NCBI GenBank assembly: GCA_031290475.1
Contig: JAITNM010000016.1
Location: forward strand, 1 to 40,271
Reading direction: 5' to 3'
Origin: Treponema sp.
GTDB lineage: Bacteria; Spirochaetota; Spirochaetia; Treponematales; Breznakiellaceae
Length of the DNA: 40,271 bases
Both the position numbers and the translations under genes were made by a program. This document shows, in pieces, positions 24,443 to 40,271 of the stretch (positions are counted from its first letter, which is position 1; each line of letters starts with the position of its first letter). A model generated the notes under the pieces. The model made no database searches. It was given only the letters and a program-made list of their open reading frames with translations, and was not told the DNA's origin.

Positions 24443-27400
24443 TCAACTCTTGGAGCTGGAGTAGAGTTCCTGGATGAGTTCCACCACGCTTCGGGAGAGC
24501 TTAAGGCTCTGGGCAATTTCGTCAACTTTCCAGCCGGCGCGCAGCAGTTTGATAACATTTTCCCGCACCGCCACAGGAGGGGCGCCCTTGTCCCGCCCCT
24601 GGGGCTTGGGATCGTCTTTTATAATCTGCCCCAGAAGCTTTCCCTGGGACTTAATCTCCGTATTGATATTCCCCAGCTCCGTAGCCGCGTCGGCGATCCA
24701 CTGCCGGGCTGTTTGCATTTCAGTGATCCGTTCCTCTATGCCCGAAAGTTCCTGATCCAGTATTGTTAGTTTGTCCGCCGTTGTCCGGGCCTGTTCGTTC
24801 TCCCTGGTGAGCTTCTCAATGGCCTGGGCGAGACTTTCCTCTTCCGCCCGGCGCTGTTCCAGGTCTTCGGTAAGCTGTTTCAGTTCCGCCTCGGTTTTCT
24901 GGAGGATCTTGAAGTTACGGTCCACCCCCAGGTTGATGCTTTCCAGGGTCTGATTCTTTTTTTCAATGCGCTGGAACTTCTCTTCCGTCTCCGCCAGGGC
25001 GTCGTTGAATTTGCGGATCTGCACCTGAATAGCCTGGAGGGTATCGTCGGAGGCGGAAACCTCGGCGAGTTTGTCGTTCACTGCCTGGGAAGTCTGGAGG
25101 AGCCGGTTAAAGTCCGCCTCCATGAGTTCAATGCGCCGCTGCTCCGTGAGGAAGCGGGTCATCTTGGCGTTTATCTCATCCTCCAGGCGCTTGATCTTGA
25201 CAAATTGGGCTTCCAGTTCCGCCGCTTCGGTACGGCGCTGATCCAGGCCGTCTATATCTCCCCGGAGATCCTCAATACGCTGCTGTAAATCCCGCTTCAA
25301 AACCTCGGCCTGGTCAAAGAGCTTGGTTTGGGTAATGAATTCCTGAATATGCCTTTCCGCTTCGGAAATAGCCGAATCCAGCTCCTTTGTGTCGGTATCA
25401 ATGCGGGAGAAAATCTCCCCTTTCTGAGTCTCGGCTTCCGCCCGCAGTTCTTCGATAAGGGAACGTACCGACGCAAGGCGATCATCGCCTTCGGCGGACA
25501 GTTCCCTGACCTTGCGGCGCACCTCTTCCATGGCGGCCCCGGAATCCTTGATCTGGGAAGCCACCTTGCCTTGCCATTCCTCGATTTCCTTTCGGGAAGC
25601 GTCCTGCAAGGCCGAGAGTTCTCCGTTCCGCTCTTCCACCTCTTTGGCTATCTTATCCAGGGATGCGGCGAGGTCCCGCTGGGCCTGCTTTAAGTTATCC
25701 GAGACGGAAAGGGCAAAACGGCCCATCTCCGCTTTAACCAGGGTTTCCGCGGCGGCCCGGGCTTCGCTTAAATCGCCGTCAAGCTGGGTTTTGTAGGCTG
25801 ACAGGGTCTCTCCGCCCTGGGTCATCTCATCCAGGATACCTTCCTCAAAGGCGGCAGTCTGGGCCTTAAGGCGCTCCAGCTCCGCTACAAGCCGTTCGTG
25901 CTGCTCCTGGAGCCGTTCCCGCAGTTCCTCTGAAAAGTTGAGCTCCAGCTGCTGCCGTTGAGCGCCGAAGTCCTCGCCCATGGCGGCAAGGGTTCCGTCC
26001 AGTTTGGCCTTCCAGTCTGCAAGCTGCTGCCCAATATCCCTTTCCCGCCGGACAAGGCCGGCGGTAAAATCATCTTCAAAGACGTTGAGTTTCTTTGATA
26101 TATTATCCGCGGTTTTTGCCTTAAGGGCTTTCACTTCCTGTTCAATCTGGTCCAGTTCCTTCCGCAGGGCCTCTACAGACTGACCAAAGGCTGAGGCTAC
26201 CGCTTCCCGCTCCTTCAATGAGGTCTGCTCAAAAACGGCAAAATCTCCCCGCACCTTGTTTTCGGTTTCCTGCATATAACGCCGCAGTTCCCCTTCCAGC
26301 CGGACCGTATCTTCCGCCAGGCTGTCCAGGGAACGGAACTGCTGAGTTTGAGCGGCCCGGTATTCTTCAAGGCGTTCGCCGGTGGATTCCAGCACCTTCT
26401 GTTCCGTTTCTTCCACGATCTTGGAGAGCTTTTTCTGGAGTTCCAGGGTGGTACCGGCGGTTTCTTTTTCAAAAGCCTTGAGCCGTTTATCAAGTTCCCC
26501 AAGCCGGGTATCAACGCGGCTTTGGGCCTGACCGGAATTTTTTTCCAGATCCGCCAGGATGTCCCGGGTTTTGGCGTCCCATTCGGCCACCGCTCCCTTC
26601 CAGACGGCAAATTTTTCATTCGCGGTACTCTGCCATTTTTCTAAATTCGCTGTAGACGCCGTTTCCCACTTGCGGAAATCCTCCTGAGCCGTGTTCTGCC
26701 AGTTCTTTAGCTCTATATCCGCCGCGGTCTTGGCTTTTTCCCCCGCGGTACGCAGGGTATCCGCAAAAAGGGGCTCTACCTGGGCGACCGTTTCGGCCAG
26801 TCTGCTGTTCAGGGCGTCCATCCGTTCTTCCAGGGCGGTGACGGCCCGGCTAAAAGCCTGTTCCCGCACGTCCGCCTGGGCTGCTATAGCAGCATCCCGG
26901 TCCGCGGCTTGGGCATTGATGGTTCCGGCAGCCTCCAGAGCCGCGGTTTCCCATTCGCTCAGGAGTTTCTTGGTCTGGGCGTCCACATCCCCCACCGCCT
27001 GCTTCCACTGGACAAAATTCTCATCAGCCTGGGCCCGCCATGCCTTAAGTTCCTCGGATGCCCTGGCTTGGGCCTTGGCCCCGGCCCGCTGTATGGTATC
27101 CTCCAGGAGGGTTTCCACCTTGGCCGAATCCTCCCGGATCTGTTCCGCAATTTGCCGGACCCTTTCCTCCAGGACGGCGGCGGTATCAGAAACCGACTGC
27201 TCCCATTTTGCCATGGAATCCGCAATAAACGCCTCCCGTTCCGCAACCCTGGCCATGACAGCCTCATCCCGCTTTTCGGCCTCTGCCGCGAGGGCCTCTC
27301 CGGCTTCCCGGGCCGCGGCCTCCCATTGGGTAATACGTTCGCCGGTACGAGATTCCGCGGCGGCGGCCGTTTCTTCCAGTTGGACGACCCGCTCCCCCGC

Positions 27401-30064
27401 ACGGGATTCCGCTTCGGTAAAGGCGGCCCGCCATTCGGTCAGGAGCTTTTTGGCCCCTTCCCCCTCAAGGGCAAGGGCCTCTTTCCATTTGGCAAGGTTC
27501 TCTTCCGCCCCGGTCTTCCATTTTTCCAGCGCTTCTTGGGCAAAAACCCGGGAGCGGTCTTCCGCATCCGCCGTGGCGCCGGCAAAAAGCCGGTCTATGC
27601 CGTCTGAAATGCCCGCAATCCGGTCCTGAATGCCCTGGAAACGGCTTTCCAGGGCCGCGGCATTGGCGGCAGCCTCTTCCTCGCACCGGGCAAATTGGGC
27701 CGCAACGGCCTCTTCACGCGCTTTGGCTTCCGCCGCGACGGCCTCCGCGGCTTCTCCGGCGGCGGCCTCCCATTGGATAATACATTCGCCGGTACGGGAT
27801 TCCGCGGCGGCAACCGTTTCCTCCAGTTGAACGACCCGCTGCCCTACACGGGATTCCGTTTCGGTAAAGGCGGCCTCCAATTGGCTGATACGTTCGCCGG
27901 TACGGGATTCCGCGGTGACGGCCGTTTCTTCCAGTTGAACGACCCGTTCTCCCGCATGGGATTCCGCTTCGGTAAAGGCGGCCCGCCATTCGGCCAGGAG
28001 CTTTCTGGCCCCTTCCCCCTCAAGGGCAAGCGCCTCTTTCCATTCGGCAAGGTTCTCTTGCGCCCCGGTCTTCCATTTTTCCAGCGCTTCTTGGGCAAAA
28101 ACCCGGGAGCGGTCTTCCGCGTCCGCCATGGCGCCGGCAAAAAGCCGGTCTATACCATCTGAAATGCCCGCAATCCGGTCCTGAATGCCCTGGAAACGGC
28201 TTTCCAGGGCCGCGGCATTGGCGGCAGCCTCTTCCTCGCACCGGGCAAATTGGGCCGCAACGGCCTCTTTACGCGCTTTGGCTTCCGCCGCGACGGCCTC
28301 CGCGGCTTCTCCGGCGGCGGCTTCCCATTGGGTAATACGTTCGCCGGTACGGGATTCCGCGGCGGCGGCCGTTTCCTCAAGTTGGACAACCCGCTCTCCC
28401 GCACGGGATTCCGCTTCGGTAAAGGCGGCCTCCAATTGGGCAATACGCTGTCCTGCCTGGGATTCCGCTTCGGTGAAGGCGGTACTCCACTCCGCAAAGA
28501 GCTTCCGGGCCTTGTCTTCTTCTTTTGCAGCCGCCTCTTGCCACCCGGCAAATTGCCCTTCCGTTTCGGCTTTCCACTTTTCCAGTTCTTCCCCTGCCAG
28601 GGAACGGGCCTTTACCTCAGCCTCGGCTTGGGCGGCGGTAAACAGATTTTCCATATTCCCCGCGGCCTCGCCTATCCACGCCTGGATCTGTCCGATACGG
28701 CTCTCTATAGCCTCTGCGGCCCCGGTAAAACGCCTCTCCTGTTCCGCCGCCCTGGCGAGGCGGGCGGTTTCCCGTTCGGCGGCTTGGGCGGCTATGGCCT
28801 CGTCCCGTTCGGCAGCGCGGGCGGCAATAGCGGCTTCCCGTTCGGCGGCCTGGGCGGCGATGGCTTCGTCCCGTTCCCGGGCTTCCCGGTCGATCCGCTC
28901 CACGGTCTCCGCGGCAACTACTTCCAGGGCGCTGAGCTGTTCACGGCCCTTAATAAGCCCCGCGTTAACCGCATCTTCCAGGGCGGCGATTTGTTCGCGG
29001 CCCTTAATAAATCCGGCGTTAACCGCATCTTCCAGAGCGGCGAGATGTTCTTTACTTTTCCGTCCACCCTCTTCCGCCGTCTGTTTCCAGGCTTCCTGCT
29101 GTTCCCGGGAAAGGGCGGATAGCTCCCCAATGTCCTTCTTAATACCTTCACGGTAATTACGGCGCTGGGTTTCCAGGGCGTCATCTTCCTGTTTCCAGGA
29201 ATTCTTGAGATCCCGCACCTGGGCCTGGGCTTCGGCAACCCGGGCCTTGGTCTCCTCCTGGTAAACCTTGAGTTTTTCATCCACCGCGTCACGGAACTGG
29301 CGGACCCGTTCGGAAGCCTGATCCCGGAGGCGGGCAAGGGATTCATCCTCAAGTTTATCCGCCCTTTCCCCTGCCTTGCTAAGGGCTTTTTCCAGAGTTT
29401 CATGAATCAGGACAAGATCCTGTTCCAGACTTTCACTCCGCTGTCTTTCCGCCAGGCCAATCGCCTCCCGGTGATCTTCCACCTTACGTTCTATGGTTTC
29501 CATGGTGGCCTGCAAATCCGAAACGACGGAACGCACCGAAGCCAGGGCGGTTTCGGAGAGCTGCTCCAGGGAATCGGCGCTCTCCTTCTCGAACCGGTTC
29601 TGCATTTCCTGGAGTTCCAGTTCCACATCCTTGAGCCTTTCCTCAGCCTGGCCTATACGCTTAACCGCGGTCTCCACAAAGGCGGACTCATCCCGGATCC
29701 GGTTAAGGTTTTCCTGAACCCGGCTTGTCATGCGGACCAGTTCTTCCAGGGAGGCATCGTACCCGCCGATTCGTTCATCTATTTGAGTTATAGCCTCGGC
29801 CTTGGTTTTGAGTTCCTCTTCGGTGAGGACCAGACGGTCCAAAAGGGCCTTGGCGGTGGTATGCCTAACCTCCAGATCCACCGCGTAATCCTGTACCGCT
29901 TGGACCTTTTTATCTACGAACTGATCTAAATCGCTCTTAAGCCGCTTTCCGTATTCCCGCAGTTTGTCCATGGATTGACGGCGGCGGGTTAACTGATGGT
30001 AGAGGATGAAGGTGAGCGCAATAATAACTAAGGTTAATATATTACCAACCGTAAAAAAGCCCAT
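24443..30064 (-). CDS. SpiroCoCo-type giant coiled-coil membrane-anchored protein
   Basis: This protein of 1873 residues has one N-terminal membrane helix (NILTLVIIALTFILYHQL, residues 8-25) followed by basic residues, placing the long C-terminal part in the cytoplasm. Nearly everything after that is predicted coiled coil rich in Ala, Glu, Lys, Arg and Gln. The centre holds hendecad (11-residue) and 18-residue repeats and two near-identical 185-residue blocks. The last 45 residues form a small helix-turn-helix-like domain (ENVIKLLRAGWKVDEIAQSL, then KLSRSVVELIQEL). The plan matches the SpiroCoCo coiled-coil family of spirochaetes, whose function is unknown. A structural role in the long helical cell or a chromosome-membrane tether is conceivable. 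The start ATG 30064 is 5 bp behind the HAD gene with no clear Shine-Dalgarno, so translation may be coupled. Confidence 0.92.
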   Translation of the reverse strand: MGFFTVGNILTLVIIALTFILYHQLTRRRQSMDKLREYGKRLKSDLDQFVDKKVQAVQDYAVDLEVRHTTAKALLDRLVLTEEELKTKAEAITQIDERIGGYDASLEELVRMTSRVQENLNRIRDESAFVETAVKRIGQAEERLKDVELELQEMQNRFEKESADSLEQLSETALASVRSVVSDLQATMETIERKVEDHREAIGLAERQRSESLEQDLVLIHETLEKALSKAGERADKLEDESLARLRDQASERVRQFRDAVDEKLKVYQEETKARVAEAQAQVRDLKNSWKQEDDALETQRRNYREGIKKDIGELSALSREQQEAWKQTAEEGGRKSKEHLAALEDAVNAGFIKGREQIAALEDAVNAGLIKGREQLSALEVVAAETVERIDREARERDEAIAAQAAEREAAIAARAAERDEAIAAQAAERETARLARAAEQERRFTGAAEAIESRIGQIQAWIGEAAGNMENLFTAAQAEAEVKARSLAGEELEKWKAETEGQFAGWQEAAAKEEDKARKLFAEWSTAFTEAESQAGQRIAQLEAAFTEAESRAGERVVQLEETAAAAESRTGERITQWEAAAGEAAEAVAAEAKARKEAVAAQFARCEEEAAANAAALESRFQGIQDRIAGISDGIDRLFAGAMADAEDRSRVFAQEALEKWKTGAQENLAEWKEALALEGEGARKLLAEWRAAFTEAESHAGERVVQLEETAVTAESRTGERISQLEAAFTETESRVGQRVVQLEETVAAAESRTGECIIQWEAAAGEAAEAVAAEAKAREEAVAAQFARCEEEAAANAAALESRFQGIQDRIAGISDGIDRLFAGATADAEDRSRVFAQEALEKWKTGAEENLAKWKEALALEGEGAKKLLTEWRAAFTEAESRAGERVVQLEETAAAAESRTGERITQWEAAAREAGEALAAEAEKRDEAVMARVAEREAFIADSMAKWEQSVSDTAAVLEERVRQIAEQIREDSAKVETLLEDTIQRAGAKAQARASEELKAWRAQADENFVQWKQAVGDVDAQTKKLLSEWETAALEAAGTINAQAADRDAAIAAQADVREQAFSRAVTALEERMDALNSRLAETVAQVEPLFADTLRTAGEKAKTAADIELKNWQNTAQEDFRKWETASTANLEKWQSTANEKFAVWKGAVAEWDAKTRDILADLEKNSGQAQSRVDTRLGELDKRLKAFEKETAGTTLELQKKLSKIVEETEQKVLESTGERLEEYRAAQTQQFRSLDSLAEDTVRLEGELRRYMQETENKVRGDFAVFEQTSLKEREAVASAFGQSVEALRKELDQIEQEVKALKAKTADNISKKLNVFEDDFTAGLVRRERDIGQQLADWKAKLDGTLAAMGEDFGAQRQQLELNFSEELRERLQEQHERLVAELERLKAQTAAFEEGILDEMTQGGETLSAYKTQLDGDLSEARAAAETLVKAEMGRFALSVSDNLKQAQRDLAASLDKIAKEVEERNGELSALQDASRKEIEEWQGKVASQIKDSGAAMEEVRRKVRELSAEGDDRLASVRSLIEELRAEAETQKGEIFSRIDTDTKELDSAISEAERHIQEFITQTKLFDQAEVLKRDLQQRIEDLRGDIDGLDQRRTEAAELEAQFVKIKRLEDEINAKMTRFLTEQRRIELMEADFNRLLQTSQAVNDKLAEVSASDDTLQAIQVQIRKFNDALAETEEKFQRIEKKNQTLESINLGVDRNFKILQKTEAELKQLTEDLEQRRAEEESLAQAIEKLTRENEQARTTADKLTILDQELSGIEERITEMQTARQWIADAATELGNINTEIKSQGKLLGQIIKDDPKPQGRDKGAPPVAVRENVIKLLRAGWKVDEIAQSLKLSRSVVELIQELYSSSKS
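27328..28437 (-). repeat. Tandem duplication of a 555-bp unit inside the SpiroCoCo gene
   Basis: Two copies, about 27328-27882 and 27883-28437, align at an offset of exactly 555 bp (185 codons). Long stretches are identical, for example the run from about 27617 to 27722 and its partner near 28172-28277. Differences are mostly single bases. The copies encode RFQGIQDRIAGISDGIDRLF and KWKTGAEENLAKWKEALALE-like segments. Boundaries blur because both ends lie in the shorter 54-bp repeats. Confidence 0.85.
28327..28488 (-). repeat. 54-bp (18-residue) repeats in the SpiroCoCo gene
   Basis: The word GGGATTCC recurs at 28351, 28405 and 28459, exactly 54 bp apart, encoding units such as AAFTEAESRAGERVVQLE. 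Related units recur within both 555-bp copies. A separate 54-bp pair, with GTTAACCGCATCTTCCA at 28964 and 29018, encodes ALEDAVNAGFIKGREQIA. Eighteen residues equal one heptad plus one hendecad. Confidence 0.8.
28771..28876 (-). repeat. 33-bp (11-residue, hendecad) repeats in the SpiroCoCo gene
   Basis: CCCGTTC recurs at 28771, 28804, 28837 and 28870, exactly 33 bp apart. The units encode RDEAIAAQAAE, REAAIAARAAE and RETARLARAAE. An 11-residue period is the signature of a nearly straight or right-handed coiled coil. Confidence 0.85.
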
Positions 30065-32376: not shown

Positions 32377-34089
32377 TTATTTCTCCGAATCCTTGCTGCG
32401 GATCACGTTCCGCTGGATTTTACCGCTGATGGTTTTCGGCAGTTCTTCAATAAATTCCACAATCCGGGGGTATTTATAGGGTGCGGTTACCCGTTTTACG
32501 TGGTTTTGCAGTTCCTTTTTCAGTTCTTCCGAAGGGCTGAAACCCCGGGCCAGAACGATGGTTGCCTTGACCACCTGCCCCCGCATGGGGTCCGGCGCCG
32601 CCGTTACCGCACATTCAAGCACCGAAGGATGTTCCATCAGGGCGCTTTCAACCTCGAAAGGACCGATGCGGTAGCCGGAACATTTGATCACGTCGTCATT
32701 TCTTCCCACAAACCAGTAATAACCTTCGTCATCGTGCCAGGCCATGTCGCCGGTTTGGTATACGTCCTGTTCCCAGCATTTGCGGGTAATATCCTCATCC
32801 TTCCAGTAGGCGCGGAACAGGCCGGGTATGCGGGATTGTTCCGTTCCCGCATACATATTGGGTCCCGCATTGGTGATGCTCATGTTGCCCACAATGCCGT
32901 CATCGCAGGACTTGCCCTCTTCATCAAGCAGATTAAGGCCGAAAAGAGGCGCGGGCTTCCCCATGGAGCCGGGCTTTACCGGCAGCCACTTGAATGCCGC
33001 CGCCATAACCGAAGTCTCGGACTGGCCGAATCCTTCCCGGATCTCCAGGCCGGTTTTTTCCTTAATTTGATGAAACACCTCCGGGCTCAAAGGCTCCCCC
33101 GCCACAGAGGTATGTTTGATAAAACTGAAATCGAATCCGGAAAGATCTTCTTTTATAAGATACCGGAAGATCGTTGCGGGGGCGCAGAAAGTGGCGGGCT
33201 TGAGCCGTTGCAGGGCGCCGAGTATGCCCTGGGGCGTAAACTTTTCGGTGTCATAAGCGCCCACGGCAGCGCCGCAGATCCACTGGCCGTAAATTTTGCC
33301 CCAGGCAAATTTGGCCCAGCCTGAATCGGTCTGGGTAAGATGCACCTTGCCGTCCTCAACGCACTGCCAGTATTTGGCGGTAACAATATGGCCCAGGGGC
33401 AGGGAATGATTATGAAGCACCATCTTGGGCATTCCCGTAGTGCCCGAAGAAAAGTAGATCAGCATACGGTCTTTGGTTCCGGTATCCGCCGCTCCCGAAG
33501 GCCGGCTGAAATGTTCATCCGCCTTTTCAATTGCGGCGCACATATCATAACTTCGGGGGAGACAAGCAGCCGGGGTAAGGGCTGAACCTACAATTGCAAT
33601 TGTATTGAGATGCGTACATTTGGGCCGGGCTGTTTTTATATTTTTCAGAAGCTCCGCATCATCCACAGCGACAAGAAGTTTAACCTCCGCAATATTACAG
33701 CGGTACTCCAGATCTTTGGCGGTAAGCTGATATGTTCCGGGAATACATACCGCCCCGATTTTCATCAGGGCGCACATGAGAATCCATACTTCAGGGCGCT
33801 GCTTTAAGATGAGCATCACCACATCGCCTTTTTTGACGCCCAGTTCCAGCAGGGCATTTGCGGCCTTATCCGAAAGGCGCTTCATTTCTGCGAAAGTAAA
33901 GGATTTCATTTCCGGAGCGTCATTGGTCCAGAGCAGGGCAAGCTTTTCCGGCTTCAGGGCGGCCCATTCATCAACAACGTCATACGCAAAATTAAAATTA
34001 TCCGGAACATTGCATTGGTAATTGGCGTAGAAATCTTCATAGGAATCGAATTCGATTCTGGGGCAGTAGCGGGATAAAATTTCATTCAT
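32377..34089 (-). CDS. AMP-forming acyl-CoA synthetase, medium-chain/acetyl-CoA synthetase-like
   Basis: This 570-residue ANL-superfamily enzyme activates a carboxylic acid with ATP and CoA. The P-loop YFSSGTTGMPK (212-222), EGFGQSE, the YQTGDMAWHDDEGYYWFVGR motif with its ATP-ribose aspartate, NDDVIKCSGYRIGPFEVE and the C-terminal catalytic lysine in LPKTISGKIQR (K557) are all present. The N-terminus and PGTYQLTAKDLEYR fit the MACS/benzoate-CoA-ligase-like group rather than long-chain FadD. The exact acid is unknown. It lies 4 bp behind a XRE-cupin regulator, an arrangement often seen where the regulator controls acyl-CoA or acetate metabolism, so autoregulation of the pair is likely. ATG 34089 is preceded by only a weak ribosome site. 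Confidence 0.93.
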   Translation of the reverse strand: MNEILSRYCPRIEFDSYEDFYANYQCNVPDNFNFAYDVVDEWAALKPEKLALLWTNDAPEMKSFTFAEMKRLSDKAANALLELGVKKGDVVMLILKQRPEVWILMCALMKIGAVCIPGTYQLTAKDLEYRCNIAEVKLLVAVDDAELLKNIKTARPKCTHLNTIAIVGSALTPAACLPRSYDMCAAIEKADEHFSRPSGAADTGTKDRMLIYFSSGTTGMPKMVLHNHSLPLGHIVTAKYWQCVEDGKVHLTQTDSGWAKFAWGKIYGQWICGAAVGAYDTEKFTPQGILGALQRLKPATFCAPATIFRYLIKEDLSGFDFSFIKHTSVAGEPLSPEVFHQIKEKTGLEIREGFGQSETSVMAAAFKWLPVKPGSMGKPAPLFGLNLLDEEGKSCDDGIVGNMSITNAGPNMYAGTEQSRIPGLFRAYWKDEDITRKCWEQDVYQTGDMAWHDDEGYYWFVGRNDDVIKCSGYRIGPFEVESALMEHPSVLECAVTAAPDPMRGQVVKATIVLARGFSPSEELKKELQNHVKRVTAPYKYPRIVEFIEELPKTISGKIQRNVIRSKDSEK

Positions 34090-34093
34090 GATG

Positions 34094-34642
34094 CTATTCC
34101 TGAATTATGGTAATGAATTGCGCAGGCCCGTCAACCGCACTCTGCCCGTGGGGCAAAGCGGCGTCAAAATAAACAGAGTCCCCCTGGTCAAGAATATACT
34201 CACGCTTTCCCACAGTTACCTTGACTTTGCCTTCCACCACATAGTTGAATTCCTGCCCCGAATGGGTTACCGGCGCCGCCGGAGCCTTTGAAGGGTCCAG
34301 ATACACCAGGAGGGGCTCCATGGTTCTTTCCTTAAAATTGTAGGCCATGCTTGAAAATTCATAACCCGGATAGCGTTCTATCCGCACGCCCTTGCCTTTT
34401 CTGCACACCGCAGCGTTCTCCATTCTCGGATCTTCCCCGGTAAGCAGCACCGTGGCGTCAGTTCCCAGGCGGCTGGCGATCTTGTAAAGAACACTGATGG
34501 GAATATCAAGCTCCCCGCTTTCGTACCGGGTATAGGTCGCGTAGGGGATGCCTATATCCCCGGCCATATCCATGGCGCTGATATCCAGGATTTCCCGGAA
34601 TTCCTTTATCCGCCCGGGTATTTGGGCAATGTTTTCATCCAT
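34094..34642 (-). CDS. XRE-type helix-turn-helix regulator with C-terminal cupin
   Basis: The protein is 182 residues. Residues 8-68 form a Cro/CI-type helix-turn-helix (RIKEFREILDISAMDMAGDI, then YATYTRYESGELDIP). Residues 110-180 form a cupin_2 barrel (PVTHSGQEFNYVVEGKVKVT, then LDQGDSVYFDAALPHGQSA) with His and Glu residues that could bind a metal or small ligand. Such proteins sense a metabolite through the cupin and regulate neighbouring genes. The acyl-CoA synthetase starts 4 bp downstream, so it is the obvious target, with the effector perhaps an acyl compound; this is inference. The start ATG 34642 has AAGGA at a good distance, and a clear promoter lies upstream. Confidence 0.93.
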   Translation of the reverse strand: MDENIAQIPGRIKEFREILDISAMDMAGDIGIPYATYTRYESGELDIPISVLYKIASRLGTDATVLLTGEDPRMENAAVCRKGKGVRIERYPGYEFSSMAYNFKERTMEPLLVYLDPSKAPAAPVTHSGQEFNYVVEGKVKVTVGKREYILDQGDSVYFDAALPHGQSAVDGPAQFITIIQE

Positions 34643-34824: not shown

Positions 34825-35394
34825 TCAGCCCATCCATTGGGTCAATTTGATCAGCATGGCGGCCAATTCAGGGATGGGGATGTTCATATTGTTTTTTAAC
34901 CAATGCTGCACAAGAGCGACGCTACCGCTTATCACAAAGACAAGATAATACTCGTTTTTTTCTTCGTCCACCGGTTTTTCAACAAAATATTTCATCATTT
35001 TCTGCCTATCGGTAAAACGGCGGAAAAACCGTTTCTGAAAATTTATATCGCCGTTTTCGCTTAACAGCACCTGAATTGAATTACTGTTATCGGCGATGTA
35101 TTTCAGCATTTCCTCCACCATCTGCTTCATGTCACGCGCACTTCCTTTGTTGTCGTATTTTTTAAGCATATCCTCAAGCGCGGTGAGGGTTCCGTCTTCT
35201 ATCTGCTTGAGCAGATCGTATTGGTCTTTGTAGTACGCGTAGAACGTTGAACGGCTTATATCCGCCTGGTCGCATAGTTCTTTAACGGAAATATCAAGGA
35301 TTGGCCGCGTCTGCATCAGTTCTATAAGACTGTCCCGCAATGCCATTTTGGTATAACGGGTTTTCCGGCTGTCTTTAGTCTCATTGTCCGTCAC
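34825..35394 (-). CDS. TetR-family transcriptional regulator
   Basis: The protein is 189 residues from GTG 35394. The N-terminal helix-turn-helix is clear (KMALRDSLIELMQTRPILDI, SVKELCDQADISRSTFYAYY, then KDQYDLLKQIE). The C-terminal helical ligand domain (VLLSENGDINFQKRFFRRFT, then EYYLVFVISGSVALVQHWLK) resembles TetR members of the DhaS/YbiH-like group. AGGAGG lies 4 nt before the GTG; the ORF is open 10 codons upstream without support. It is divergent from the RND/LolA-like/barrel operon, with 204 bp between starts holding several inverted repeats. By the usual TetR pattern it should repress that operon and itself, with release by a hydrophobic ligand, probably the transported molecule. 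Confidence 0.92.
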   Translation of the reverse strand: MTDNETKDSRKTRYTKMALRDSLIELMQTRPILDISVKELCDQADISRSTFYAYYKDQYDLLKQIEDGTLTALEDMLKKYDNKGSARDMKQMVEEMLKYIADNSNSIQVLLSENGDINFQKRFFRRFTDRQKMMKYFVEKPVDEEKNEYYLVFVISGSVALVQHWLKNNMNIPIPELAAMLIKLTQWMG

Positions 35395-35418
35395 AATACC
35401 TCCTATTAAATCGAAAAC

Positions 35419-35433
35419 CAACACGCAGTGTTG
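35419..35433. promoter_or_regulatory. Candidate TetR operator 1
   Basis: CAACAC-GCA-GTGTTG is a perfect inverted repeat with 6-bp arms, 25 bp before the TetR start codon. It shares the AACA...TGTT half-sites with the second candidate near the RND promoter, as expected for one regulator acting on both. Confidence 0.45.
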
Positions 35434-35493
35434 ATTATGACTCCCTTACAAATTAACAAAAAACGTCCAAAACCGGACATTACCAACCTGCCC

Positions 35494-35530
35494 TGTTCAA
35501 TACAAAACGTATTAGAATGAACAGTCTGTT
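35494..35530. promoter_or_regulatory. Candidate TetR operator 2: overlapping inverted repeats at the RND promoter
   Basis: A 30-bp inverted repeat runs from TGTTCA (35494-35499) to TGAACA (35518-35523) with an inner ATAC/GTAT pair. It overlaps AACAG-T-CTGTT (35520-35530), which abuts the -35 box of the RND promoter. Binding here would block RNA polymerase. Confidence 0.45.
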
Positions 35531-35557
35531 TACATTTATTCTTAGTGTGCGGATAAT
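35529..35557 (+). promoter_or_regulatory. Promoter of the RND/LolA-like/barrel operon
   Basis: TTTACA (35529-35534), a 17-bp spacer and GATAAT (35552-35557) are close to consensus, 41 bp before the RND start codon. The -35 overlaps the end of the AACAG-T-CTGTT repeat. Confidence 0.6.
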
Positions 35558-35598: not shown

Positions 35599-38247
35599 AT
35601 GGAAAAATTTTTTAGGCGCCCGGCTTTGGTTGTAGGCGTTATCGCCCTTGTCGCGGTGTTCTTCGCGTTCCAGCTTGCCGGGGCGGAACTGGACAACAAC
35701 AACTTTCGTTATATACCCGATGACAACCCCGCCCATATTGTCTCGGAATACCTTGACGATACTTTTGGCGGACAGGTCAGCGTCCTGGTCGGTCTTGAGC
35801 GAAAGTTCGGCACGGTCTTTGAGGCTGAGTTCCTGGCGCGGGTGCGGGACTTTGCGGCAAGGGTTGAGGACTTTGATTACATAAAAGACGTTACATCCCT
35901 TATGTCAACCCAATATATCACCGGCAATGCCGACAGCATCATTGCCGGCGATCTGGTGGACCCTCTCTTTAGCGGCAGTCCCGGGGAAATTGCGGAACTT
36001 AAACGGCGGATCGCGTCCTGGGATTTATTGCAGGGGGCGCTGGTATCCGAGAGCGGCGCGGCAACACAGGTACTGGTCACCCTTAATGTGGATTCCGATG
36101 ATGCCGGAAAGCCGGAAGTAGTCGCGGTTGTGGCCCAAATACGGAACGCCGCAAAGGAAATGTTTGCAGGCCTTGCGGAAGTCTACGTTACCGGCCAGCC
36201 TGTTATCAGCGCCGCCATCAACGAATCAATTATCGCCGATATGTTCTTTTTGATACCCATGGTAGTAGCAGTACTCCTCGCGGTGCTTTTCTTTTCCTTC
36301 CGCCGCTGGAGCAGCGTATTTTTGGTGCTGCTCACGGTACTCGTGGCGGTGATCTGGTCCATCGGCGCCATGCCTCTTTTCGGCGTCAAGCTTACCATCA
36401 TTTCCATGCTGCTGCCGGTTATACTCATGGCTGTGGGGAGCGCCTACGGTATCCATGTAGTAACCCACTATATGGAGGATACACGAGACCGCATATTGAG
36501 TGCGGAAGAACACCGCGCCCTGGTCTTTGCTCTTGTGCGGAAAATGATAAAGCCCGTCTTTCTTGCTGCGCTCACCACCTTTGCAGGGTTTGTATCCTTC
36601 TGCTTTACCTCGATTATACCGATACGGGAGTTCGGAATGTTCGCCAGTTGGGGGGTGTTAGTCTCCTTTATGGTGGCAGTAACCCTGATCCCATCGCTCA
36701 TCTTGATTAAAGGCCCGCCGAAAAAGGCTTCGATTAAACGCATTAAACACAATAATAAAACTGCGGTAAAATCAAAACGTGATTTTAACAACACCTTGGC
36801 CGGCGGCCTGCTTGCCGTGGCGGAAAGGAAAAAAACCATCCTCGCCCTTACCGCCCTGGTTACGGCGCTTGCCTTCTACGGCCTTACCAGACTTGTTGTT
36901 GACAATGTGATGATAGAATTTTTCCGGGGTGAAACGGACATGAGCCGTTCCGACGGCTTTATGCGGGAATACTTTGGCGGCTCCAAAGAATTAAGCATGG
37001 TGGTGGAGGCCGACAGCGCGGAAATACTGTTAAGCCCTGAGGTGTTGCGCGCCATTGATGATTTTTCCGTGTGGATGAGCGCCAATGTAAGCGGTGTCGG
37101 CAAGGTGGTGGGTTTTACGGACGTGATAAAACGCATCAACCAGGTGTTCAATGTTGATGAAAGCCCTGATGGGTTGCAAGTAAATATAACCACGGACCAC
37201 ACAAACTTCACGAACGATGATTTTGGCTTTGGCGGCTTTGATGATTTTAATGATGTTAGCTTTGGCGATTTTGGTGATGATGGTTTTGAAACCCCGCCGC
37301 CTGACACAAATACGGTTGGCGCAGCCTGGTCCATCAATGAGTACACCGCCGCGGACATCATCGCCCTGCTGGATATGGCGGCAGCCCAGGGGGGGAACGG
37401 GGCCGGGCTGGCGCGGGAGCTGAAACGGCTTACCAATTATGAAGGGTTTTCCTATTACGAAATCCCCGCCGATCCGGCCCGTTACGGCAAAACCAGCGAT
37501 GAAGAATTGCAGCGTTTGGTCTCAAATTATCTGGTGTTAGTTGCCGGAGGCGACTTTTCAGACTATGCCAACGACCCTATGGAACCGACCGCAATCAGAA
37601 CCATGCTGCAACTGCGGACGACAGGCGACCGGGACACCAAGGCGGTCATGGCAACCATTAACGATTATATTGAAGCCAAGTTCCCAAAAACGGTGCGGGT
37701 AACGGTGGGCGGCAGCGCCAGTATAGAAAGCGCCATTACCGCGCTTATCGTAAACTCCCAAATTATCTCCATCGCCATTTCCATACTGGTAGTACTGATC
37801 ATACTGACCTTCTCTTACCGATCATTTGCGGCCGGCGTTATCGGCGCCATTCCCCTGGCGCTGGCCATTATTTGCAATTTTGCGGTCATGGGCTTTTTGG
37901 GGATAAAACTGAACATCGGCACCGCGCTCATCGCCAGCATTTCGGTAGGTATAGGCATTGATTATACCATTCATTTTATTGACGCCTTTAAGCGCGAGTA
38001 TACCCAGGGCGGCGAATACCTCCGCAGAACTTTTATCGGTTCCGGTAAGGCAATTCTGATTAACGCCGTATCCGTGGGCGCGGGTTTTGGCGTACTCGCG
38101 TTTTCCCGCTTTAAGATGCTGGCGGAATTCGGCGCTCTTATTATGTTGAGCATGTGTATCAGCGCCCTGGTAAGCCTTACGGTCATCCCCGCCCTTTTAA
38201 CCACGGTTAAACCAAAATTTATATACAAGGGAAGCCCTGATTCATGA
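35599..38247 (+). CDS. RND/MMPL-superfamily transporter
   Basis: This 882-residue inner-membrane protein has the duplicated RND plan. Each half has a first helix (LVVGVIALVAVFFAFQL; ILALTALVTALAFYGLTRL), a large periplasmic domain and a cluster of helices (FLIPMVVAVLLAVLFFSF, IISMLLPVILMAVGSAYGIH, LTTFAGFVSFCFTS; SIAISILVVLIILTFSYRSF, ASISVGIGIDYTIHFIDAFK). GSAYGIHVVTHY and GIGIDYTIHF are the family's conserved proton-relay helices. Such MMPL/HpnN-like proteins move lipids or hydrophobic molecules using the proton gradient. Residues about 538-570 of the second periplasmic loop are an odd Asp/Gly/Phe-rich stretch (NDDFGFGGFDDFNDVSFGDF). An AGGAG lies 13 nt before ATG 35599, longer than usual. 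It heads a three-gene operon. Confidence 0.93.
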   Translation: MEKFFRRPALVVGVIALVAVFFAFQLAGAELDNNNFRYIPDDNPAHIVSEYLDDTFGGQVSVLVGLERKFGTVFEAEFLARVRDFAARVEDFDYIKDVTSLMSTQYITGNADSIIAGDLVDPLFSGSPGEIAELKRRIASWDLLQGALVSESGAATQVLVTLNVDSDDAGKPEVVAVVAQIRNAAKEMFAGLAEVYVTGQPVISAAINESIIADMFFLIPMVVAVLLAVLFFSFRRWSSVFLVLLTVLVAVIWSIGAMPLFGVKLTIISMLLPVILMAVGSAYGIHVVTHYMEDTRDRILSAEEHRALVFALVRKMIKPVFLAALTTFAGFVSFCFTSIIPIREFGMFASWGVLVSFMVAVTLIPSLILIKGPPKKASIKRIKHNNKTAVKSKRDFNNTLAGGLLAVAERKKTILALTALVTALAFYGLTRLVVDNVMIEFFRGETDMSRSDGFMREYFGGSKELSMVVEADSAEILLSPEVLRAIDDFSVWMSANVSGVGKVVGFTDVIKRINQVFNVDESPDGLQVNITTDHTNFTNDDFGFGGFDDFNDVSFGDFGDDGFETPPPDTNTVGAAWSINEYTAADIIALLDMAAAQGGNGAGLARELKRLTNYEGFSYYEIPADPARYGKTSDEELQRLVSNYLVLVAGGDFSDYANDPMEPTAIRTMLQLRTTGDRDTKAVMATINDYIEAKFPKTVRVTVGGSASIESAITALIVNSQIISIAISILVVLIILTFSYRSFAAGVIGAIPLALAIICNFAVMGFLGIKLNIGTALIASISVGIGIDYTIHFIDAFKREYTQGGEYLRRTFIGSGKAILINAVSVGAGFGVLAFSRFKMLAEFGALIMLSMCISALVSLTVIPALLTTVKPKFIYKGSPDS

Positions 38248-38288
38248 ACCACGGACAGGAAGATTTCAAACAAAAAGTCTGTGTGGTT
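38247..38288 (+). other. Intercistronic stem-loop between the RND and LolA-like genes
   Basis: AACCAC-GG-ACAG (38247-38258) pairs with CTGTGTGGTT (38279-38288) around a 20-nt loop, leaving two bulged G. It starts at the RND stop codon and is followed by AT-rich sequence rather than a T run. It could protect or separate the upstream message, or act as a partial terminator. Confidence 0.4.
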
Positions 38289-38317
38289 AAAATATTATTT
38301 ACACAAGGAGTGTTGAA

Positions 38318-39106
38318 ATGAAAAGAATTGCAATGGCAGTGGCAGTGTTACTCACTTGCTCATTTCTGGTGGCCGCTCAGGACGCGGACGCACAGCGTGC
38401 GGCGGCGATTATGAAGACGGCCAGGGAACGGAACGAGAGTAGCAGCATGGGAACTCGTGACCGCATGGTGGTTGCCTCAAAAAACGGCTCGACCAAAGAA
38501 ATGGTTATCGACCAGTATTCCAAGGACGGCCCCAACGGTTCACGGACGATGATAGTCTTTAATTCACCTGCCGGTCAAAAAGGCACCCGCTTCCTCAGCA
38601 TGGAAAACGGATCGGGGAATACCGACCAGTGGATATTTTTATCATCCCTGGGGAAAAGCCGCCGGATTGCGTCCTCGGAAAGCGGCGGCAGTTTTATGGG
38701 CACCGATTTCTCCTACGATGATATGTCGCTCATGAGCAGGGAAGCCGGTGACGACAGGCACAGTATAGTGCGGGAGGAAACGTTGAACGGCGCGGCCTGT
38801 TACGTCATCCAGTCAGTTCCCAGAGAGAGCGATTATCAGTATTCAAAGACAATTTCGTGGGTCGATATGGCGAACAGCCGCATCTATAAAGCTGAGCTAT
38901 ACGATAAAAAGGGCGCGTTGGTAAAGCTGCTGGAAATGTCAGACTACCGGGATGTGCAGGGCAGGGACACGCCGAAGTCGACCAGAATAAGCACCGTTGC
39001 CGCAGGGACATCAACTACCATCTACATGGACCGTATCGAGTATGATATGAATATCCCCGAGAGCGTCTTTACCACATCCTATCTTGAAACCGGGAGGGCG
39101 AGGTGA
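38318..39106 (+). CDS. LolA-like periplasmic outer-membrane lipoprotein-sorting family protein
   Basis: This 262-residue exported protein has a signal peptide (MKRIAMAVAVLLTCSFLVAA, then QDADAQ). The mature part is rich in beta strands, with STKEMVIDQYSKDGPNGSRT, MIVFNSPAGQKGTRFLSMEN, DQWIFLSSLGKSRRI and SFMGTDFSYDDMSLM. The last pattern (GSFMGTDFSYDD) is typical of the LolA_like/outer membrane lipoprotein-sorting family that accompanies RND transporters. These have an open half-barrel that carries a lipid or lipoprotein across the periplasm. Treponema pallidum has a comparable neighbouring pair (TP0789/TP0790), from memory. AAGGAG lies 7 nt before ATG 38318. Its stop overlaps the next GTG (GTGA), so the two proteins are co-translated. 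Confidence 0.88.
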   Translation: MKRIAMAVAVLLTCSFLVAAQDADAQRAAAIMKTARERNESSSMGTRDRMVVASKNGSTKEMVIDQYSKDGPNGSRTMIVFNSPAGQKGTRFLSMENGSGNTDQWIFLSSLGKSRRIASSESGGSFMGTDFSYDDMSLMSREAGDDRHSIVREETLNGAACYVIQSVPRESDYQYSKTISWVDMANSRIYKAELYDKKGALVKLLEMSDYRDVQGRDTPKSTRISTVAAGTSTTIYMDRIEYDMNIPESVFTTSYLETGRAR

Positions 39107-40271
39107 AAAACACTATTGCTGTTATTACCGCGCTTTTGTTCGGCGTAACAACCGGATTATCCGCACAAGACTTCGGTTTTGGTTTTGACGATACTGGCGC
39201 GGAAGAAACGGGAAGCAGTATTCCATTCGCCGTCTCTATCGGGGGAGAAGCCGGCGCGGAACTTGTAGGCTATGTGAAAGATATTTTTTCAGAGGAAATA
39301 GGAGAGGCGCAGCTTGGGGATATTTTTTTAGGGAAGCTCAATTTTAGCGCGGAAACTTCCCACGCTAAAGGGATCATCAATCTGAAACTGTCCCCCACCG
39401 TTTCACCTGTTGCGATTGACGAAGCCTATATGGCCGCTTTTTTCGGTAATTTCGATATTGAAGGCGGCCTTCGCAAACTCACCTGGGGCAAGGCCGATAG
39501 TTTCGGCCCCCTGGACGTGATCAATCCCCTTGATTTCTCAAGCCTTACCAACATGACGAGCGTCCTGGAACGCAAAATCGCCCGCCCACTTGTGCACGCT
39601 TCATACCGTTTTGGGCAATTCTCAAAACTGGAGGGCGTGTTTGTCCCAACCTTTGAAGGCATCCGTTTTGCCACAAGCGGACGCTGGGTCCCGCCTCAAT
39701 TTGCGTCAATTCCGGAAGGGCTGACGATCAACACTCCCGACACATCGAAACTGGAATACGCCCAGGCAGGGCTTCGGTTCACCACAACAGCCGGGCCTGC
39801 GGATATTGGCTTTCAGTATTACTACGGGTACTTAAGCCGCCCCGGGATGGTTCTTAATTTTACCGGCCCGGTTCCAACCGGTATTGATCTCCTCTACAAT
39901 CCCTACCATCAAATCGGCGCGGATTGGGCGCAGGTCATAGGCGGTTTTAATCTCCGCGCCGAAGCTGCCGCCAATATCACCGGTGACCTTGCGGGGGATG
40001 ATGGCTCTGTGTACAACCCCGCCCTCGCGTGGTCGCTCGGCTTTGACCGCGATCTCTTTTGGAACATAAACCTGAACCTCCAGGTGAATGAGACAATCCG
40101 TTTGCTTGACAGCAAATGCGGTCCCCTGGATATAGAAGCCAATGCCGATATAACGTCTACCCGCGTTACGGCGAAACTCTCAAAAAAGTTTTTGCGTGAT
40201 GAACTTGAAATCAGTGCTGCTGCTATCTGGGGTATTGAGGACTCCGATTGTCTTATCATGCCTTCTCTCAT
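39103..40271 (+). CDS. Exported outer-membrane beta-barrel protein (partial), partner of the RND/LolA-like pair
   Basis: The gene starts at GTG 39103, overlapping the previous stop by 4 bp, and is open for 389 codons to the window edge, so the C-terminus is missing. A signal peptide (MKNTIAVITALLFGVTTGLS, then A) precedes a mature start QDFGFGFDDTG. The rest alternates in beta strands of outer-membrane type: FAVSIGGEAGAELVGYVKDI, KLNFSAETSHAKGIINLKLS, GFQYYYGYLS and GGFNLRAEAAANITGDLA, plus LRKLTWGKADSFGPLDVINP. The last motif and the layout resemble the DUF1302-type barrels that accompany MMPL and DUF1329/LolA-like genes in other bacteria. It is the likely outer-membrane exit or entry of this transport system. 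Confidence 0.8.
   Translation, partial: MKNTIAVITALLFGVTTGLSAQDFGFGFDDTGAEETGSSIPFAVSIGGEAGAELVGYVKDIFSEEIGEAQLGDIFLGKLNFSAETSHAKGIINLKLSPTVSPVAIDEAYMAAFFGNFDIEGGLRKLTWGKADSFGPLDVINPLDFSSLTNMTSVLERKIARPLVHASYRFGQFSKLEGVFVPTFEGIRFATSGRWVPPQFASIPEGLTINTPDTSKLEYAQAGLRFTTTAGPADIGFQYYYGYLSRPGMVLNFTGPVPTGIDLLYNPYHQIGADWAQVIGGFNLRAEAAANITGDLAGDDGSVYNPALAWSLGFDRDLFWNINLNLQVNETIRLLDSKCGPLDIEANADITSTRVTAKLSKKFLRDELEISAAAIWGIEDSDCLIMPSL

Follow-up and report, generated by a model that had tools for sequence, protein, structure and literature searches.

Transport systems that join a resistance-nodulation-division (RND) pump to a LolA-like periplasmic protein and a porin-like outer-membrane protein have been described in bacteria. 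A set of three genes of this kind, the subject of the present analysis, lies at the end of contig G000:C273 of a 3.2-Mb Treponema sp. draft genome (the window, which is the entire contig of 40,271 bases). In AmeABCD of Castellaniella defragrans, where deletion supports export of hydrophobic compounds, one operon encodes an HAE3-type RND pump, a LolA-superfamily periplasmic protein (DUF1329) and a DUF1302 outer-membrane protein (PMC6394551), which bears out the resemblance to sets of MMPL plus DUF1329/DUF1302 proposed in the first-pass annotation. Ame differs in its gene order and in having a fourth protein, AmeC (COG4447), whereas the carrier here belongs to PF17131 and no extra gene lies between the RND, LolA-like and barrel genes in the window or its relatives, which separates them from tetrapartite systems of the AmeABCD type. 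In Thalassolituus oleivorans, an MMPL-LolA protein and a porin (TOL_3187/TOL_3188) are induced on C28 alkane, and alkane uptake has been proposed (PMC6304351). An MMPL pump, a LolA-like domain and a porin-like protein from the neighbouring gene are found there as here, except that pump and carrier are fused in a single protein in Thalassolituus.

The nearest characterised families to the pump are the hopanoid transporter HpnN and the MmpL transporters, and HpnN reportedly functions with neither a carrier gene nor an outer-membrane gene linked to it (PMC6394551). For the carrier, the closest solved structure is LolA3 (PDB 9tp6), studied in P. gingivalis and F. johnsoniae as a Lol paralog that has no assigned function; term searches of PMC13103446 and PMC11885536 gave no mention of an RND, MMPL or DUF1302 partner of LolA3. 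The operon also stands apart from tripartite pumps of the AcrAB-TolC type, since in place of a membrane-fusion adaptor and a TolC-type factor it encodes a LolA-like carrier and a porin-like barrel. The triplet alone follows a known kind, exemplified by AmeABCD and TOL_3187/TOL_3188. The new part is a short tag shared by the pump and the barrel, which co-evolves in the two proteins. This is the most informative feature of the locus; it was not in the first-pass annotation, and no earlier description of it was found in the open-licence literature.

A tag shared by the pump and the barrel

The three genes run on the forward strand and encode an MMPL/HAE3-like RND permease of 882 amino acids (35599..38247), a LolA_like (LolA3-type) periplasmic carrier of 262 amino acids including its signal peptide (38318..39106) and an outer-membrane barrel with a GTG start, of which 389 amino acids are present (39103..40271). 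In the barrel, the tag DFGFGFDD occupies residues 23-30 (39169..39192, + strand) directly after the predicted signal-peptide cut, the mature protein starting QDFGFGFDD. In the pump, alignment places a tag-bearing insertion, NDDFGFGGFDDFNDVSFGDFGDDGFE, at residues 539-564 (37213..37290, + strand) of the second periplasmic domain. The same short aromatic-acidic motif recurs there as DDFGFGGFDDFNDVSFGDFGDD, and the insertion with DDFGFGGFDDFNDVSFGDFGDDGFE sits immediately ahead of a conserved YYEIP segment. Both tag-bearing stretches are predicted to be disordered in relatives, with a predicted local distance difference test score (pLDDT) below 50; in the modelled pump of the ortholog L049 the low-scoring insertion spans residues 524-572. 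Over the 121 sets with a pump insertion, the median distance from the start of the mature barrel to its first aromatic residue is 4 residues.

A short motif at the N-terminus of a barrel that is read in the periplasm is familiar from the TonB box of TonB-dependent receptors. The likeness holds in that one respect: here the inner-membrane pump bears the motif too, and the comparison does not extend to TonB, a plug domain or energy transfer.

An FGF-type tag is present in nearly every pump and barrel of the close relatives. Farther out in the Spirochaetia, the tag type switches jointly in both proteins, the joint types being PPLGF(D/E) at locus L167, (L/I/V)PSF or PGFGD/E at L165, DDWGS at L154, GFT(S/T)F at L169 and L174, DSF(F/Y) with EDD at L177, DSFFDD at L187, (S/T)FGFD at L188 and SFFEE at L138. 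In genome G270 the pump-carrier pair (L142) is encoded far from the barrel (L149), yet an FG-type tag is found in both. At L147 a single fusion protein of 1031 amino acids combines pump and carrier and lacks the pump insertion, as would be expected if the insertion serves to hold the carrier. The paralogous barrels of another subfamily (L254-L256) begin almost directly with the first strand, and the pumps of these sets yielded no extractable insertion.

The covariation was tested by aligning each pump insertion locally with the barrel tag of its own locus and setting the result against that of re-paired loci. Among 19 pumps under 50% identical, own-locus tag similarity was 35.0 against 28.5 after re-pairing (p = 0.0002), and for 47 pumps under 62% identical it was 36.9 against 30.0 (p = 5e-5). 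Control segments (a later barrel segment and the LolA N-terminus) gave a null result in the same test with both pump sets. Shuffling the residues within tags leaves about a third of the excess similarity, and the real order beats all 30 shuffles; composition thus contributes, while residue order carries most of the signal, and composition alone was rejected as the full cause of the likeness. Where pump and barrel share identical four-residue words, codon identity is 0.46, equal to the 0.46 expected from codon usage. This argues against gene conversion as the origin of the tag likeness, a candidate that was rejected, and for selection on the protein. A simple tag score calls a barrel tag in 116 of the 121 sets whose pump has the insertion, against 3 of 14 whose pump lacks it (Fisher p = 3e-10); this p is only indicative, as relatedness is still contained in it and the negatives were entered manually from loci already encountered. 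The tag was also considered as a generic outer-membrane signal and rejected: in the window's own genome DFGFG occurs four times in two triplets and twice elsewhere, both of the latter in proteins that are not barrels by inspection, and there were no control matches.

Components of the triplet

The pump is a member of PF03176 (E 4.6e-48), which it matches in two stretches with 164.3 bits against a cut-off of 20.5. Its top NCBIfam model is HAE3 (TIGR00921), with a score of 241.5 bits that falls under the cut-off of 351.9, and the protein is therefore called HAE3-like rather than classed as an HAE3 member. It likewise lies outside the HpnN hopanoid transporters of NCBIfam (141.2 against 751.85 bits and 94.3 against 1100). 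The RND relatives in this comparison are movers of hopanoids, sterols and mycolates; the solved MmpL4 and HpnN structures match the pump by sequence, and the model of the L049 ortholog aligns over its full length with structures of NPC1, Patched, AcrB and MmpL (Z about 41).

The carrier belongs to PF17131 (E 4.9e-61; 206 bits against a cut-off of 30) and matches LolA3 of P. gingivalis (9tp6) by sequence with E 5.7e-30, its match to DUF1329 being only weak. The modelled carrier of the relative L098 superposes on 9tp6 with Z 28.0 and a root-mean-square deviation of 2.1 over 233 aligned residues (VIA-align). No LolCDE or LolB gene is found within the operon.

The window is a complete contig, so the C-terminus of the barrel is missing. 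The incomplete protein, identified by orthologs at the same place, has no significant Pfam family (best Wzi, E 0.074), and no solved structure matching it by sequence was found. Among full-length relatives, Phe is the last residue of the barrel in 112 of the 121 sets with a pump insertion, and in 92 of these 121 barrels a Tyr stands two residues before the terminal Phe. A C-terminal end of the YxF type is usual for barrels inserted by the barrel assembly machinery (BAM). The AlphaFold2 model of the L098 relative, from a chain read through with the carrier, is a closed barrel mostly at pLDDT 85-97 with about 18 strands (our own count from the listed structural elements), and it groups with the OccK/OprD, MOMP and AlgE barrels (Z about 20-21, VIA-align). 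The expectation that the third protein would prove to be a barrel once its C-terminus was seen is thus upheld by the relatives. Barrel homologs match PF06980 (DUF1302) at L135 (38 bits, E 1.4e-9) and in Prevotella (51.3 bits, E 1.3e-13; cut-off 23.2), whereas the window's own incomplete barrel does not; judged by sequence, its link to DUF1302 is indirect and runs via these relatives. Around residues 253-263 of the window barrel, the conserved barrel is broken by a loop, likely a surface loop, whose length varies widely among relatives and paralogs, from 0 to about 100 residues.

Regulator and genomic context

The gap between the RND and LolA-like genes is 70 nucleotides, and the stop of the LolA-like gene overlaps the start of the barrel gene as GTGA (39103-39106). 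A TetR-type regulator (TetR_C_8; PF14278, E 3.3e-18) is encoded divergently at 34825..35424 on the reverse strand. Its orthologs are divergent and adjoin the triplet in L049-L051, with 74%, 68% and 74% identity. Three linked genes supplying parts for the envelope layers, with a GTGA overlap and a divergent TetR, were what the first-pass annotation described, and the open reading frames, Pfam matches and conserved gene order agree with it. A palindrome read in the sequence, GTCC-N6-GGAC (35465..35478), is a candidate TetR operator; in the alignment it is retained in L049 and L050, and a single half is retained in L051. A promoter-like site for the operon, TTTACA-17-GATAAT (35529..35557, + strand), scores 10/12 in a consensus scan, in which the site count was no higher than in shuffles; its -10 region is conserved among the orthologs by alignment.

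Upstream of TetR, genes for an acyl-CoA synthetase and a helix-turn-helix-cupin regulator occupy 32377-34642 on the reverse strand. The closest NCBIfam model for the synthetase is MbcS, with a score under the cut-off. The two genes probably lie outside the module, since they are not beside the triplet in the orthologs searched. Farther off, an open reading frame of 1873 amino acids at 24443-30064 on the reverse strand has long internal repeats and looks coiled-coil-like by eye.

Conservation and distribution

The nearest named relatives of the window are metagenome-assembled Treponema genomes of what appears, from the isolate series, to be a termite gut (84% LolA identity in L049). In two of the closest orthologs a DUF2147 protein is encoded after the barrel (8353-8853 in L049 and 6035-6535 in L051), possibly as an extra periplasmic part. 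Locus L052 (JAITPB010000042.1) is labelled Clostridiales bacterium and encodes a LolA 80% identical to that of the window together with a spirochaete-type barrel; the contig is probably mis-binned Treponema.

PF17131 was found in 174 of 247 sampled spirochaete genomes. When 80 spirochaete loci were fetched from named genomes using LolA alignment alone, most had the RND gene upstream and the barrel gene downstream of LolA on one strand; the RND-LolA-barrel order is conserved far beyond chance. The regulator is divergently encoded in one large group of the 80 loci and missing from another. The window's genome also contains a second full triplet on contig C13, without a divergent TetR, and a pair of carrier and barrel genes on C57, where the pump lies off the contig.

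Outside the spirochaetes, Prevotella nigrescens has MMPL, LolA_like and DUF1302 genes in identical order, its pump lacking the insertion and its barrel the tag. Fusobacteriota have the same parts, and in Haliovirga the three genes stand in a different order. The set is thus widespread rather than spirochaete-specific, and the suggestion of a distinct spirochaete route is not supported. On a Sulfitobacter dubius plasmid (L191), a type I polyketide synthase gene lies immediately before the MMPL and LolA_like genes, a neighbour that hints at an endogenous cargo in that relative. Elsewhere within the spirochaete phylum, at L139, L144, L145 and L146, a LolA_like carrier and a barrel-like protein are encoded beside MacB/LolE-like permeases and an ATPase, not an RND pump. 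This arrangement recalls the Borrelia BBJ23-29 cluster (PMC13078400), and no matching permease tag was seen for the barrels beside these ABC-type permeases.

A genome of 1,139,633 bases, inferred to be T. pallidum, has adjacent RND and LolA-like genes (L134, G045:C1, about 855-860 kb), in keeping with the LolA-like/RND pair given for this species in the first-pass annotation. The pair carries a DDFGVF tag. No barrel of this family was detected in the genome at E 1e-6, and a scan of its reading frames through overlapping segments of 20 kb showed no tag-matching barrel either. TP0790 of T. pallidum is an RND pump that has been modelled as AcrB-like with a MacA-like adaptor (PMC8407342).

Proposed mechanism and rival explanations

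The system would be a regulated trans-envelope shuttle for a hydrophobic molecule, in which pump and barrel dock a common partner, most likely the carrier; as a whole, this reading has in our judgement an even chance of being right. Powered by the proton motive force, the RND permease would lift the cargo out of the inner membrane or the periplasm, the LolA-like protein would ferry it over the periplasm within a greasy groove, and the barrel, with its roughly 18 strands, would hand it into or through the outer membrane, with TetR sensing a ligand and controlling the operon. The modelled folds and the precedent of analogous systems support such a shuttle: the cargo is very probably hydrophobic, perhaps a lipid or lipid-like molecule, and transport outward is moderately favoured. 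The pump insertion and the mature N-terminus of the barrel would act as flexible arms bearing one aromatic-acidic tag, which is probably a docking site. What would the two arms hold? The shared tag suggests that pump and barrel bind a common partner, and the carrier is the only other constant member of the set; that it is the docked protein seems to us evenly balanced. It would be caught first at one membrane and next at the other. Going further, the co-evolving tag might form a two-station code that recruits one carrier to both membranes and sorts pump, carrier and barrel partners among paralogous sets, which we put forward tentatively, at somewhat under even odds.

Several observations weigh against the proposed shuttle with its docked carrier. 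The carrier is not clearly basic (pI 6.0 in the window, median 7.0), so there is no simple charge match to acidic tags. By the simple score, L147, L169b and Ilyobacter have a tag-like barrel N-terminus without a pump insertion, and the pump-barrel tag match is weak or nil in L135 and L180. Partial Mantel tests fail to distinguish the carrier from general relatedness, and they were not used as support because a control segment correlates too. AlphaFold2 docked neither tag in two read-through chains, a weak docking test since the chains were artificial (stop read as Gly), kept internal signal peptides and had a first alignment that placed some barrel tags on the carrier. Flanking genes vary between loci and no cargo gene is linked; the variable flanks imply that the module is self-contained.

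It is conceivable, if rather improbable, that the tags join pump and barrel without the carrier, tag to tag or through another scaffold, as a membrane bridge like that of a tripartite efflux pump. Pump and barrel each have a long disordered arm with many aromatic and acidic residues, a median of nine aromatics in that of the pump, as for multivalent stickers. However, the tags are acidic on both sides (median pI about 4) and would repel each other in direct contact, the carrier is the only linked candidate for a common scaffold, and the genome inferred to be T. pallidum retains pump, carrier and DDFGVF tag without a detectable matching barrel. That the likeness of the tags is a functionless by-product of shared composition or of DNA copying inside the operon is highly improbable: composition does explain its third of the excess, but the remainder depends on residue order, codons agree no more than usage predicts, and the other barrel and carrier segments show no such likeness.

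Rivals to the proposed shuttle concern the cargo as well. TetR-induced detoxifying efflux of foreign hydrophobic compounds, rather than outer-membrane building, is unlikely though well worth considering. The divergent TetR of one large locus group fits it, as does AmeABCD, whose deletion cuts monoterpene tolerance and increases Nile Red accumulation (PMC6394551); the other large group, which includes the second triplet of the same genome, nevertheless lacks the regulator, and the polyketide synthase ahead of the Sulfitobacter pair hints at an endogenous product there. It is highly improbable that the carrier is a true lipoprotein-sorting LolA within a set that brings lipoproteins to the outer membrane or the cell surface. 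The annotation of its family is lipoprotein-sorting, and the family also occurs beside the MacB/LolE-like permeases and ATPase of L139 and L144-L146, but the nearest relative with a solved structure, LolA3 of P. gingivalis, shows only very weak binding to the lipoprotein receptor LolB (PMC13103446), deletion of lolA3 in F. johnsoniae has no phenotype (PMC11885536), and the pump is an MMPL-type RND protein, not LolCDE.

Implications

What leads soluble carriers to their proper pump as well as to their proper outer-membrane acceptor is a question that envelope biology has still to answer. A short tag that both membrane partners bear, and that shifts jointly in the two across a bacterial class, would be a concrete interaction code, one that can be tested with peptides and that predicts pairings among paralogous sets. 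For T. pallidum, the partner of TP0790 may be the LolA-like protein of the neighbouring gene, and not an adaptor as modelled (PMC8407342).

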